The notes under the pieces are model-generated. The model made no database searches and had not been told where the DNA came from. It saw nothing but the letters and a program-made list of their open reading frames with translations. A stretch of DNA of 43,532 nt, taken from positions 1-43,532 of the forward strand of contig QNDR01000010.1 in assembly GCA_003646025.1 (NCBI GenBank), in the 5' to 3' direction. How positions within the stretch are numbered: the stretch's first letter is position 1; every line of letters starts with the position of its first letter. This DNA comes from Candidatus Fermentibacterota bacterium (GTDB lineage: Bacteria; Fermentibacterota; Fermentibacteria; Fermentibacterales; JCC-6). The position numbers were made by a program, and so were the translations under genes. Shown here piece after piece: positions 2,460-17,573 of the stretch.

Positions 2460-3667
2460 ACTGTCCTTCCAATGTCTCTTCTCATGTGTTTGCCTTCAAA
2501 CTCTATAAGCTCAGCATCTCTGTAAGCATTTTCCAGCGCCTCATCCAGGTCTTCGCCAAGTGCTGTTACACCCAGCACTCTTCCCCCTGCCGTGTACAGA
2601 GAACCATTTCTTTCGGTGGTCCCGGCCTGAAAGACCAGGGAATCAACCTTATCGATACCGGTGATCTCCTTACCTTTCGAATAGCTGCCGGGATACCCGC
2701 CAGAAGCAAGAATAACACAGGCCGAAGCTCCGTCACTGATCTCTACTGGAGGCAGCTTCTTTCCTCTGGCTGCAGCGAGAAACAACTGATCAAGACTGCT
2801 CTTTACAAGAGGCAGAACCGCCTGGGTCTCCGGATCACCGAAACGCACATTGAATTCCAGAACAAAGTATCCGTACTCCGTAATCATGAGACCGGCATAC
2901 AAAACACCTCTGTATTCCGTTCCCCGTGCTTTCATAACCCTGAGTACAGGAAGTATCACTTTTTCAAGAACATCATCTCCGAAATCGAAGGGAATGTCTG
3001 GTGGCGGACACACAGCACCCATTCCACCGGTATTGGGCCCCATATCACCATCATAAACCCTCTTGTGGTCCCGACTGGGAGGAAGAACAACGGCATCAGT
3101 TCCGTTGCAGACAGCCAGAACGCTGACCTCTCTGCCGGAAAGCCTCTGTTCAACAACCACAGTGCCGGAGCCGTTTCTGAACAGCTCCTCGATGATGGCA
3201 TCGGATTCCTTCCGCGTGTTCGGAAGGTACACGCCCTTGCCTGCAGCCAGACCGTCTGCCTTTATAACGAATTTGTCCGGGTACTCTCCAATGTAGTCCA
3301 CGGCGGAAGCGTGGTCTGTAAACACCTTTCCCGTTGCTGTTGGAACACCGGCCTCGGCCATTATTTCCTTGGCGAACCACTTGCTGCCCTCAAGACGGGC
3401 ACACTGTGCAGACGGCCCGAAACACGGTATTCCCTTTTCTTCAAGCACATCCGCAATACCATTAACCAGAGGAACTTCCGGACCTACAACCACCAGATCA
3501 ACAGATTCTTTCAATGCTATTTCAACCGGATCCCCTGTTGTATTGGTTGCGAACTCTGCTGTCCCCGGGTTTCCGGAAGAAACAAGAATCTGGTTTGCAC
3601 CGTTTCTGTGCAGAGCCCACGCAAGCGCGTGCTCGCGGCCTCCACTGCCAACTACAAGAATTTTCAC
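2456..3667 (-). CDS. purD: Phosphoribosylamine--glycine ligase
   Basis: 403 aa; [73 protein letters not shown]. Confidence 0.95.
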
Positions 3668-13834: not shown

Positions 13835-15856
13835 CTACTCTATTCTGGCTGTTGAGCCCTCAACAGGTGTAAACAGCTCACACTCTACTCCGGGAACATT
13901 CAGGAACAGAAATTCCTCTACCCTGCCGGCAAAATCAAGGCGGTTCTCCTCATGGGCAAAACCGTGACCCTCGTCACCGTAAACCACATACAGAACCTCC
14001 GTTCCTATTTCGCGAAGGGCACTGACCATCTGGTCACTCTCATCCTTTATCACTCTGGGGTCGTTGTCTCCCTGAACGATAAACATGGGCATTGTCATGT
14101 TCTCAGGAAAATTAACCGGGGAAGTCTCTTCCAGCATTGCTCTGTCCGCTTCGTCCTCAGGGTCGCCCACTCTGATATCCATCATGGCCTTTAGGGGTTT
14201 CCAGTAAGGTGGTACAGTCTCCATGAATGTGTTCAGATTGGAAGGTCCGAAGAAGTCCACGGCAGCGCAGTAGAGTTCCGGTGTGAATGCAGCTCCTGCA
14301 AGTGTTGCGTAACCACCGTAGGAACCACCAAGAATAACTACCCGCTCCGGGTCGGCAATACCGTTCTCCACTGCCCAGCTGACACCATCTGTAATGTCAT
14401 TCTGCATGTTTTTCCCCCACTGCCTGTTACCTGCATTCAGGAACTCTTTCCCAAAGCCGGTAGAACCCCGGAAGTTAACCTGCAGCACTGCAAAACCTCT
14501 GTTGGCAAACAGCTGGCAGAATGGTTCATAACCGTAGTAGTCGCGAGCCCATGGGCCACCGTGTACGTACATAATTGTGGGATATGGCCCTTCTCCGTAA
14601 AACTCTGAATCAGGTAATGTGAGATAGCTGGGCAGCGTATAGCCGTCGCGTGACTGTATCTCTACCGGTTCCACTGAAGCGAGTTTGTAGTCGGCAAGGG
14701 CTGGAATGGCTGTAAACATCTCCATCATGGTTGTATCTGTTCTGTCGTAGAGGAAGTAAACTGCAGGGTTGTCTACAGTGTAGTAAACAACTATCCATGT
14801 ACTGTCCGCGTTGTCTCTGGAAACTGTTCCAAAATCGCCTTCATGGTAACCTGCAAGAAAGTCCATGTCCGGTTGAATGGAGTCATCGAGGATCTCGCGC
14901 CTGCGCCTGAGGTAGTTGAAAGACACAGATCTGGGCTCTCCTGTATTGGGATCGAAACTCACTCCACCAACATCTGCAAGCGAATCGGATGTGATGAACG
15001 AAAGCTCACCGGTTTCCAGGTTCTGATAGTACAGAGCGGAAAGGTTGGATTCAAGGTTGGAAGCCAGATAGATACCTTTTCCGTCATCACTGAATCTTCT
15101 TGGCTCCCATGCATCATTTGATGAGAAGCTGGCAAGCTCCTCCCACTGGGAATTCTCATTCCACCTGTGATACACGGTGAAAAAGCCAGTTTCCGGATTA
15201 ATAGCGCTATACATTCTTATGTTGAGATCTTCGTCAGGCATGTAACCCAGCACCATATCGCCGTTCTCATCCGTACCCGGGTTATCGGCAACCATGGTTA
15301 GTTCGCCTGTTTCCAGGTTGCAGCTGTAAACATCAAAGAACATGGGATTCTCTTCATTGGTTTCTATGAGCACTGTGTTGGGCTGGTCTTCATCTGTGGC
15401 ACTTACGTAAGCTTTTACACCGTCAATGGGAGTGAGGTCAACCACTTCACCTGTCGCAACATCAAGACGGTACACGTGGGTGTTTTCTTCACCAGCTTCG
15501 TCCTGCATGTACAGAATGTGAATACCGTCTTCGGCCCAGGAATAGTTAGTAACGCCTCTGTTGGTGTCGAAGGTAAGCTGCCTGGGTTCAGACATATCCC
15601 TGTTCATTACCCACAGATTAAGCACCGCATCAACAGGAGCTATGTACGAAATCATGCTTCCGTCCGGTGAAATCTGCGGACCAACCCTTTCAGGATTCCC
15701 GAACAGAATCTGCCTGGGAATAAGCCTTTCCGAATTGTCGGAACTCACGTGCTCTGGTTCTACAAACGGCTCTGCCGTGTTGTCTGCAACCGGTGCTTCG
15801 CCATCGCCGCAACCGAGAAGCATAATCACCGGCAGGAAAAACAGAAATCTTTTCAT
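13835..15856 (-). CDS. S9-family (prolyl oligopeptidase-like) peptidase lipoprotein
   Basis: 673 aa; lipobox LLGC; beta-propeller N-terminus; catalytic GGSYGGY, DNDPRV, DEGHGF; YVHGGPWARDYYGYEPFCQLFANRGFAVLQVNFRGSTGFGKEF. Confidence 0.93.
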   Translation of the reverse strand: MKRFLFFLPVIMLLGCGDGEAPVADNTAEPFVEPEHVSSDNSERLIPRQILFGNPERVGPQISPDGSMISYIAPVDAVLNLWVMNRDMSEPRQLTFDTNRGVTNYSWAEDGIHILYMQDEAGEENTHVYRLDVATGEVVDLTPIDGVKAYVSATDEDQPNTVLIETNEENPMFFDVYSCNLETGELTMVADNPGTDENGDMVLGYMPDEDLNIRMYSAINPETGFFTVYHRWNENSQWEELASFSSNDAWEPRRFSDDGKGIYLASNLESNLSALYYQNLETGELSFITSDSLADVGGVSFDPNTGEPRSVSFNYLRRRREILDDSIQPDMDFLAGYHEGDFGTVSRDNADSTWIVVYYTVDNPAVYFLYDRTDTTMMEMFTAIPALADYKLASVEPVEIQSRDGYTLPSYLTLPDSEFYGEGPYPTIMYVHGGPWARDYYGYEPFCQLFANRGFAVLQVNFRGSTGFGKEFLNAGNRQWGKNMQNDITDGVSWAVENGIADPERVVILGGSYGGYATLAGAAFTPELYCAAVDFFGPSNLNTFMETVPPYWKPLKAMMDIRVGDPEDEADRAMLEETSPVNFPENMTMPMFIVQGDNDPRVIKDESDQMVSALREIGTEVLYVVYGDEGHGFAHEENRLDFAGRVEEFLFLNVPGVECELFTPVEGSTARIE

Positions 15857-15976: not shown

Positions 15977-16010
15977 ATGTGTGCTGACCTTTGAAGGAGG
16001 CCTTACCGTC

Positions 16011-16205
16011 ATGAATCGGGATATCACTGTGGAAGTCTTTCATAGTTTTGAGGAGGAGAACAGAGCCGAAGCTACTCGGCGTTCCAGAACATCAATAGAG
16101 CAACGGCTACACGAGTTCGCCACTCTTCAGGAACGCAGATGGGGGGCTGACTGGGGTTCGAGACCAATCGAAAAAGTAGTATCATACGAGAAAACAGACT
16201 GGTAA
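16011..16205 (+). CDS. Small protein (64 aa) of the nucleotidyltransferase-partner type; candidate antitoxin/partner
   Basis: RBS GAAGGAGG 10 nt upstream of ATG 16011; MNRDITVEVFHSFEEENRAEATRRSRTSIEQRLHEFATLQERRWGADWGSRPIEKVVSYEKTDW. Resembles the small SFEEA...SxxQRL proteins commonly found before stand-alone nucleotidyltransferases. Confidence 0.7.
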   Translation: MNRDITVEVFHSFEEENRAEATRRSRTSIEQRLHEFATLQERRWGADWGSRPIEKVVSYEKTDW

Positions 16206-16209
16206 ATCG

Positions 16210-16663
16210 GTGTTCTTCTCAGATGATATGAAAGACCTTATCTCTCTGTTTCACAAACATGATGTTGCCTATGCTCTTGTAGGCGGTTATGCTGTAAACT
16301 ACTACGGCTACACCAGAATGACTCAGGACATCGACTTTCTGCTTCTTCCATCAAAAGAAAATGCTGAGAATGTAATGAATGCACTGGAGGAGTTCGGCTT
16401 TGGAAATGCAGGTATACAACAGGAATTGTTTGAACACTCCGGCTGCAGTACACCTTGGAGTAGAACCAAACCGGATAGACCTGCTAACACACCTGGAAGG
16501 CATGAACAACAACACTGTTTTCAACAACATTGAACAGACTGCAATTGAGGGAACTACTGTGAACATTATCTGCAGAGCAGACCTAATTCTTGCAAAAAAA
16601 ACATCCAGGCGTCTGCGTGATCAGGCTGATGCGGAAGAACTCGAAAAGCTGTCCGGTGAGTGA
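16210..16663 (+). pseudogene. MNT-like/DUF6036-type nucleotidyltransferase, frameshifted
   Basis: Frame 1 gives HDVAYALVGGYAVNYYGYTRMTQDIDFLLLPSKENAENVMNALEEFGFGNAGIQQELFEHSG. The family-like continuation AVHLGVEPNRIDLLTHLEGMNNNT...ADLILAKKTSRRLRDQADAEELEKL lies in the +1 frame (ORF 16379..16663). Confidence 0.75.
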
Positions 16664-16666
16664 AAG

Positions 16667-17041
16667 CTATTGAAAATACTTCAGCATCTGTTGTTTTTCA
16701 GGCAGAAAGGCAGCAACTGCTCCGGCAAGACCAAGCACTATGGCAAGGCAGAATACCGGCTGACCGCAGTGAACACCTCTCAACAGCCCGCCCAGTGTTT
16801 CAACTGAAAATACCGCAGCGTAATCAACACTTCCCAGATCCTGTTCGCCAAGCCACCGAGCCACAAAGTAGCCCATTACTGAAAATACAACCACTACAAT
16901 AGCAGCGGTAAGCCACGGAAACACAGGACGACGGGGCATCAACCTTACGCTGAATCCTTCCGGCTCGGAACCACTGCTTACACTGGCTGCAAGCATCTCG
17001 TCAATTCTGTCGTTCAGTGTGTTATCAACCAATGAGTTCAT
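16667..17041 (-). CDS. Small membrane protein, putative anti-sigma factor
   Basis: 124 aa; cytosolic N-terminus then two TM segments; overlaps the 3' end of the sigma factor gene by 17 bp. Confidence 0.6.
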   Translation of the reverse strand: MNSLVDNTLNDRIDEMLAASVSSGSEPEGFSVRLMPRRPVFPWLTAAIVVVVFSVMGYFVARWLGEQDLGSVDYAAVFSVETLGGLLRGVHCGQPVFCLAIVLGLAGAVAAFLPEKQQMLKYFQ

Positions 17042-17573
17042 CCTTCCTCTCTATCAGCAGTTCCTTCAATCTTGCTCTCGCCCTGGAAAGATACACCCTT
17101 ACCGTTCCAGGGGGAATCTCCATGATCTCAGCCACCTCTGATGAGGTAAGCTCCTCAAAATAGCACAGCGTAACAAGCTGCCTGTCTCTAAAGGAAAGTT
17201 GAGATACGGCTTTCTCAAGAATGATACGGGAACCGTCGTAGGCAACTGGAAAGGAAGGGCTGAGGTTATCAAGAAATTCATCCACCCCGCTGGTTTCCAT
17301 TCTTCTGTTTCTTTTCTCTACGGCGTTAAGACAGGTTCTACGGGCAATGGCAGCAATCCACCCGGGGAATGCTGCCGGTTCTCGCAGTCTGTTCAGTTTC
17401 AGCCATCCCTTAAGGAATATGTCCTGGCACAGATCCTCAGCCATATGGTGATCTCCCGTCATCCGAAGAGCCATGGTGTAAACAAAGCCGGTGTAGTTCT
17501 TAACAAGGGTACCGTAGGAATCTCTATTCCCACCAGCGGCAGACTGCACCAGCTTTGCCGTCTCGTGTTTCAC
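17025..17573 (-). CDS. ECF-type RNA polymerase sigma factor
   Basis: 182 aa; YTMALRMTGDHHMAEDLCQDIFLKGWLKL (region 2) and LSFRDRQLVTLCYFEELTSSEVAEIMEIPPGTVRVYLSRARARLKELL (region 4). Confidence 0.94.
   Translation of the reverse strand: MKHETAKLVQSAAGGNRDSYGTLVKNYTGFVYTMALRMTGDHHMAEDLCQDIFLKGWLKLNRLREPAAFPGWIAAIARRTCLNAVEKRNRRMETSGVDEFLDNLSPSFPVAYDGSRIILEKAVSQLSFRDRQLVTLCYFEELTSSEVAEIMEIPPGTVRVYLSRARARLKELLIERKDELIG

Follow-up and report, generated by a model that had tools for sequence, protein, structure and literature searches.

Does a short gene that precedes a frameshifted nucleotidyltransferase (NTase) gene in a Candidatus Fermentibacterota bacterium form a toxin–antitoxin module with it and, if so, which of the two products would be the toxin? 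The pair lies at positions 16011–16663 of the window, by which we mean the whole 43,532-nt stretch of DNA analysed (GenBank assembly GCA_003646025.1, contig QNDR01000010.1, forward strand); it is contig C10 of a 136-contig metagenome-assembled genome (MAG), and those relatives that have been named are Candidatus Sabulitectum MAGs. An original prediction from sequence described a 64-aa protein with its own strong ribosome-binding site and an NTase 4 nt past its stop, and both are present. A Shine-Dalgarno-like AAGGAGG (15994–16000, + strand), read in the sequence, lies 10 nt upstream of the ATG of the small open reading frame (ORF; 16011–16205, + strand), and a GTG at 16210, 4 nt past the small-gene stop, opens an NTase containing LVGGYAVNYYGYTRMTQDIDFLL; a promoter scan returned nothing above chance. 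Our analysis indicates that the pair is probably a decayed member of a broad MenAT1-like toxin–antitoxin family, with the NTase as toxin and the small two-helix protein as its cognate antitoxin.

Linkage of the small protein to the NTase

The small protein was found in 9 of 42 Fermentibacterota genomes, and at five of these loci it was followed directly by a complete NTase. Pairs also occurred in an Acidobacteriota genome, and a further bacterium had the pair with a truncated NTase. Other species of the genus had the same pair at the orthologous position, and it was also present in other phyla; a profile built from seven NTases had matches in 144 of 297 Acidobacteriota genomes. The original prediction had called the pairing recurrent and proposed a check of gene neighbourhoods, which we ran and which found conserved linkage. 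By iteration from nine small proteins, an adjacent family member was recognised at 37 of 38 training NTase loci; at the remaining one (L020), where the NTase is frameshifted, the small protein was recognised by eye. A profile of these 37 small proteins was run (E < 0.01) against 85 NTase loci from Fermentibacterota and Acidobacteriota that lay outside its training, and a family member stood beside the NTase in 76 of them, with two matches in the rest of the 4,376 ORFs, both belonging to such modules. In 65 of the 76 the small-gene stop fell 50 or 56 nt inside the start of the NTase model, so that the genes overlap, whereas in the window's own subgroup they do not overlap and are a few nucleotides apart. 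A model limited to the part preceding the overlap still matched at 64 of the 85 held-out loci, with one match elsewhere.

Loci were also collected starting from the NTase (the NTase-first set; 120 loci, 107 with an intact NTase). All 107 intact NTases were adjoined by a short partner, recognised by the model in 99 cases and by eye as a divergent member in 5; of the other 3, one has the family partner on its downstream side and two have a different short ORF. The linkage of the small protein with the NTase is thus real and nearly obligate, and the module is widespread yet undescribed; our literature search found no paper discussing DUF6036, one of the families that the NTases match.

The arrangement varies at a few loci. 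The family partner lies downstream rather than upstream of the NTase at L124 (369–563), and the same swapped order was seen at L197 (~1590–1790), a locus from a search started from the small protein. Near two remote NTases, L080 and L083, lie different short ORFs instead of the family partner. These ORFs, upstream of the NTase at L080 and downstream at L083, carry the patterns S-P-x-x-K-L-x-W-L or S-M-T-x-R-M and may represent further partner families.

Features of the two proteins

The small partner, a putative antitoxin, was delimited from its ORF, a conserved family alignment, an AlphaFold2 model and purifying selection. Family members are 60–75 aa long, and the model predicts helices at residues 13–26 and 29–44 with a disordered or flexible C-terminus. 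None of the 37 small proteins convincingly matched a Pfam, NCBIfam or PADLOC family, and the earlier observation that the partner is neither a HEPN nor an AbiEi protein stands, as no such or other family model matches. An NCBIfam RecX match was rejected as chance (E = 0.01; 15.5 bits, below the cut-off of 253). The small protein had no match when searched against plasmids, phages and viral contigs.

Several relatives of the NTase match DUF6036 (PF19502) or DUF2204 (PF09970). When an NTase profile was compared with the PDB, MenT1 (8an4), a tRNA-modifying toxin of Mycobacterium tuberculosis, was the best match (E = 4.8e-8), and a Foldseek search with an AlphaFold2 model (predicted local distance difference test score 85.9, predicted template modelling score 0.82) placed MenAT1 (8an5) at the top (E = 2e-6). 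The lincosamide enzyme LnuA (4fo1) came next (E = 0.0022 by profile and 6.4e-5 by Foldseek). The AlphaFold2 model was of the L006 pair, translated as one chain across the only stop that separates the genes, and its alignment contained close small-protein relatives only, as distant ones were misaligned onto the NTase. The NTase gave no match in phages, a MenT1 fragment used to search plasmids for MenAT1-like pairs gave none, and a search for further close relatives in the phylum of L017 recovered only L017 itself.

Among 100 NTase homologues, the equivalents of MenT1 T39, D41, D43, K137 and D152 were conserved in 100, 95, 97, 100 and 100, respectively. In MenT1, the substitutions D41A, K137A and D152A abolish toxicity and T39A does not (PMC10435456); T39 is the site of auto-phosphorylation induced by MenA1, the antitoxin of MenT1 (PMC11375011). 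The Thr is therefore invariant, and more strictly conserved than two catalytic Asp residues, although its equivalent is dispensable for the toxicity of MenT1.

One-sided decay and assignment of roles

Decay of the module was one-sided. In the NTase-first set, 9 loci, including that of the window, had an intact small gene next to a disrupted NTase, and an intact NTase beside a broken small gene was found in none of 107. A further 7 of 100 full-length NTases had lost D41 or D43. The search started from the small protein gave 105 matches; among 22 inspected loci for which no complete NTase was listed, 13 had only a broken NTase and 6 had none. Were lesions distributed according to gene length, several loci should show an intact NTase next to a broken small gene, and none did. 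Because broken, missing or catalytically dead NTases adjoin intact small genes, and never the reverse, this pattern supports the NTase as toxin and the small protein as antitoxin, the opposite of what the HEPN-MNT system predicts. The original prediction had offered a toxin–antitoxin-like reading, and the one-sided decay, as read from sequence, lends it support.

State of the window NTase

The N-terminal part of the window NTase, a putative MenT1-like toxin (GTG start; 16210–16440, + strand; identified as an ORF and by the family hidden Markov model (HMM)), carries VGG and T-x-D-I-D catalytic motifs and thus holds the equivalents of MenT1 T39, D41 and D43. The family HMM matched 16213–16443 in frame 1 and then 16430–16654 in frame 2, and tblastn aligned both halves to one intact 151-aa homologue at 64–70% identity; the overlapping HMM matches and tblastn pieces place the shift from frame 1 to frame 2 at 16432–16443 (+ strand). 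The C-terminal part (16437–16663, + strand), out of frame with the first, encodes the third acidic residue and the K137 and D152 equivalents and ends at the frame-2 stop, 16661–16663. The predicted first product would therefore retain the T-x-D-x-D motif and lose the active-site Lys and late Asp. Programmed frameshifting was considered and rejected, as there is no slippery heptamer around 16435–16443 and relatives encode the protein in one frame.

Compared with relatives, both halves of the window NTase had ratios of nonsynonymous to synonymous substitution (dN/dS) of 0.10–0.22, and values among orthologues were ~0.04–0.2 for small gene and NTase alike. Because both halves are constrained, the frameshift, if real, is recent. 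As the shift leaves the toxin without the catalytic residues of its C-terminal part, the locus in the window is probably a relic in which the toxin gene is broken and a harmless partner is kept. In proposing assays with a frame-restored NTase, the original prediction had recognised the frameshift; that the toxin here is probably dead while its partner survives was left unstated.

Proposed mechanism and alternative explanations

We propose that the NTase is a pol-beta-fold enzyme that, by homology with MenT1, would add nucleotides to tRNA 3' ends and so stop translation. The antitoxin would be made first, from its own strong ribosome-binding site, with the toxin translationally coupled to it. 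The small protein would block the NTase by binding it, probably across its active-site face; once freed, the NTase would extend tRNA 3' ends and translation would stop. The small protein may in addition cause the invariant Thr, which lies two residues ahead of the first catalytic Asp, to become phosphorylated, in the way that MenA1 acts on T39 of MenT1. Toxicity, its neutralisation, the tRNA target and the phosphorylation are inferred. More tentatively, the small proteins may constitute a large antitoxin family, as yet undescribed, that accompanies DUF6036/DUF2204 NTases in several phyla and silences these tRNA-modifying toxins through both binding of the active-site face and induced Thr phosphorylation.

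Several points weigh against a MenAT1-like toxin–antitoxin pair with these roles. Part of the one-sided decay could be explained by the larger target that the NTase offers (~450 against 195 nt) or by the phylogenetic non-independence of related genomes. Three of the nine disrupted loci (L146–L148) were chosen partly for their partial matches, which could bias the count, and a small gene too degraded to be recognised would escape it. Because the L006 pair was fused through a read-through stop, the interface in that model is no evidence of binding. With a threshold as loose as E ≤ 10, PDB searches with profiles of 37 and of 64 small proteins still did not find MenA1 and gave chance matches only, and Foldseek with the small-protein model returned no match at E ≤ 10, so that homology of the antitoxin with MenA1 is unsupported. 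The small protein also has no recognisable DNA-binding domain, and autoregulation is therefore not evident; MenAT1 likewise lacks such a domain (PMC11375011).

Could the roles instead be reversed, as in type VII HEPN-MNT modules, with the small protein as a toxin that the NTase, as antitoxin, nucleotidylates? NTase antitoxins are known in the superfamily, with MntA modifying HepT (PMC7641770), and the small gene comes first, with a strong ribosome-binding site. However, intact small genes recur beside broken, absent or catalytically dead NTases and never the other way round, which is the wrong direction of decay; in addition, the partner is a protein of 60–75 aa with two predicted helices and no match to a HEPN model, and the NTase is nearest to the toxin MenT1 rather than to MntA. 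We consider reversal very unlikely. The module might also be no toxin–antitoxin system at all: the NTase could be a drug- or metabolite-modifying enzyme of LnuA/ANT type or an effector of defence, with the small protein serving it as chaperone or regulatory subunit. LnuA is indeed next in sequence and fold, and some family pairs adjoin restriction-modification genes, but the match to MenT1 is better and spans nearly the whole domain, and an obligate short partner together with frequent one-sided decay fits a toxin better than a resistance enzyme; this explanation is unlikely, if less so than reversed roles. A third alternative concerns the window copy only, namely that the frameshift arose as an error in assembly or sequencing and that the module there is intact and working. 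We regard this as a minority possibility, although a substantial one: both halves look constrained and no other lesion is present, whereas orthologues in the same genus have been damaged independently (the equivalent of D43N in G035, an insertion and a truncated small gene in G031, a remnant in G036 and a deletion fusion in G037).

Genomic site and distribution

In the window, the module is flanked on the left by a gene for an S9 (prolyl-oligopeptidase-like) lipoprotein peptidase (13835–15856, − strand), whose function was named from sequence, and on the right by a gene for a small membrane protein, a putative anti-sigma factor by inferred function (16667–17041, − strand), which adjoins an ECF-type sigma factor gene (17025–17573, − strand; identified as an ORF and by synteny) that served as the synteny anchor. 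The peptidase gene is kept beside the module across the genus, and the putative anti-sigma gene is likewise kept. In G000, G033, G034 and G035 the module lies between the peptidase gene and the putative anti-sigma/sigma pair; in G031 and G032 it adjoins one or both of these flanks, and in G036 an NTase remnant is found there. In G028, G029 and G037 the flanks lie near each other and no module was matched between them; G029 has a lone small gene elsewhere in its genome, and G037 has a deletion that fuses the ends of both module genes. Among the occupied sites, G032–G034 have an intact module, a catalytic Asp is missing in G035, the G000 copy is frameshifted, and G031 has the insertion and truncated small gene. 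At L008 (~850–1000; contig C220 of G031) the NTase is broken by a short tandem duplication with a unit of ~45 nt, and the start of the small gene is also lost. Gain or loss is thus seen at one chromosomal site in the genus, where the module is intact in some species, decaying in others and absent in three.

The module, found in Acidobacteriota, Fermentibacterota and Cyanobacteriota, is patchy and mobile, as seen in occupied and empty versions of one site, plasmid copies and swapped gene order. On the cyanobacterial plasmid pGM02 of Geminocystis (L019, 2865–3438), the pair lies inside a type I restriction-modification operon, with hsdM/hsdS plus VapC-type and helix-turn-helix genes on one side and hsdR on the other; the small ORF there is annotated as 'toxin secretion, membrane fusion protein', probably a misnomer. 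On pSYSA of Synechocystis PCC 6803 (L209, ~2390–2721), an intact, unannotated small ORF overlaps a broken NTase that is annotated as a 64-aa hypothetical protein, and this pair is absent from the MNT pairs listed in a 2016 survey of type II systems. On a plasmid of Synechocystis PCC 7339 (L210, ~2680–3120), CRISPR-like, regularly spaced, near-identical repeats directly follow a truncated NTase. Plasmids of Fibrella (L021, 2758–4905) and Spirosoma (L023, 2757–4896) carry a DUF6036 NTase fused to a long TOPRIM/primase-like C-terminal region and preceded by a different ORF of 74–75 aa.

NTases of the DUF6036/DUF2204 type occur commonly. As the gene for their short partner overlaps that of the NTase, it often lacks an annotation or bears a wrong name. 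Once the partner is recognised, many 'orphan' nucleotidyltransferases become testable as toxin–antitoxin pairs, and control of the MenAT1 type would then reach well beyond mycobacteria. Natural loci with a dead toxin and a surviving lone antitoxin are now available as a set, and through the invariant Thr the proposed MenA1-style auto-phosphorylation can be tested directly.

Comparison with known systems

The original prediction drew its analogy from MNT/HEPN and AbiE; the closest characterised analogue is MenAT1 rather than either of those systems. HEPN-MNT (HepT-MntA, type VII) is likewise a two-gene module with a small pol-beta-fold NTase, but no HEPN match was found among the 37 small-family members, and the recurrent loss of the NTase with its partner intact argues that the NTase is not the antitoxin here. 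AbiE (AbiEi-AbiEii, type IV, abortive infection) shares the NTase toxin class, and the N-terminal part of the window NTase weakly matches AbiEii (PF08843; 18.8 bits, below the cut-off of 22.5); the 64-aa partner, however, lacks the two-domain winged-helix architecture of AbiEi. DUF6036 and DUF2204 are families of unknown function whose models describe no partner.

With MenAT1 of M. tuberculosis (Rv0078B-Rv0078A), the module shares the order of a short antitoxin gene followed by a compact NTase, the NTase fold with catalytic residues T39/D41/D43/K137/D152 (the Lys and late Asp lying behind the frameshift in the window), and a short, helical antitoxin that has no DNA-binding domain. It differs in that its small proteins are not detectably related to MenA1, its NTase is ~150 rather than ~190 aa, its two genes overlap by 50–56 nt in most relatives, and it occurs in Acidobacteriota, Fermentibacterota and Cyanobacteriota. 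Judged by sequence, the NTase has the homology, active site and adjacent partner by which a MenT protein was assessed, and the partner is not MenA1-like. The module would act much as MenAT1 does; because the partner is not detectably MenA1, we set it apart from MenAT1 proper, as a variant with a new putative antitoxin family.
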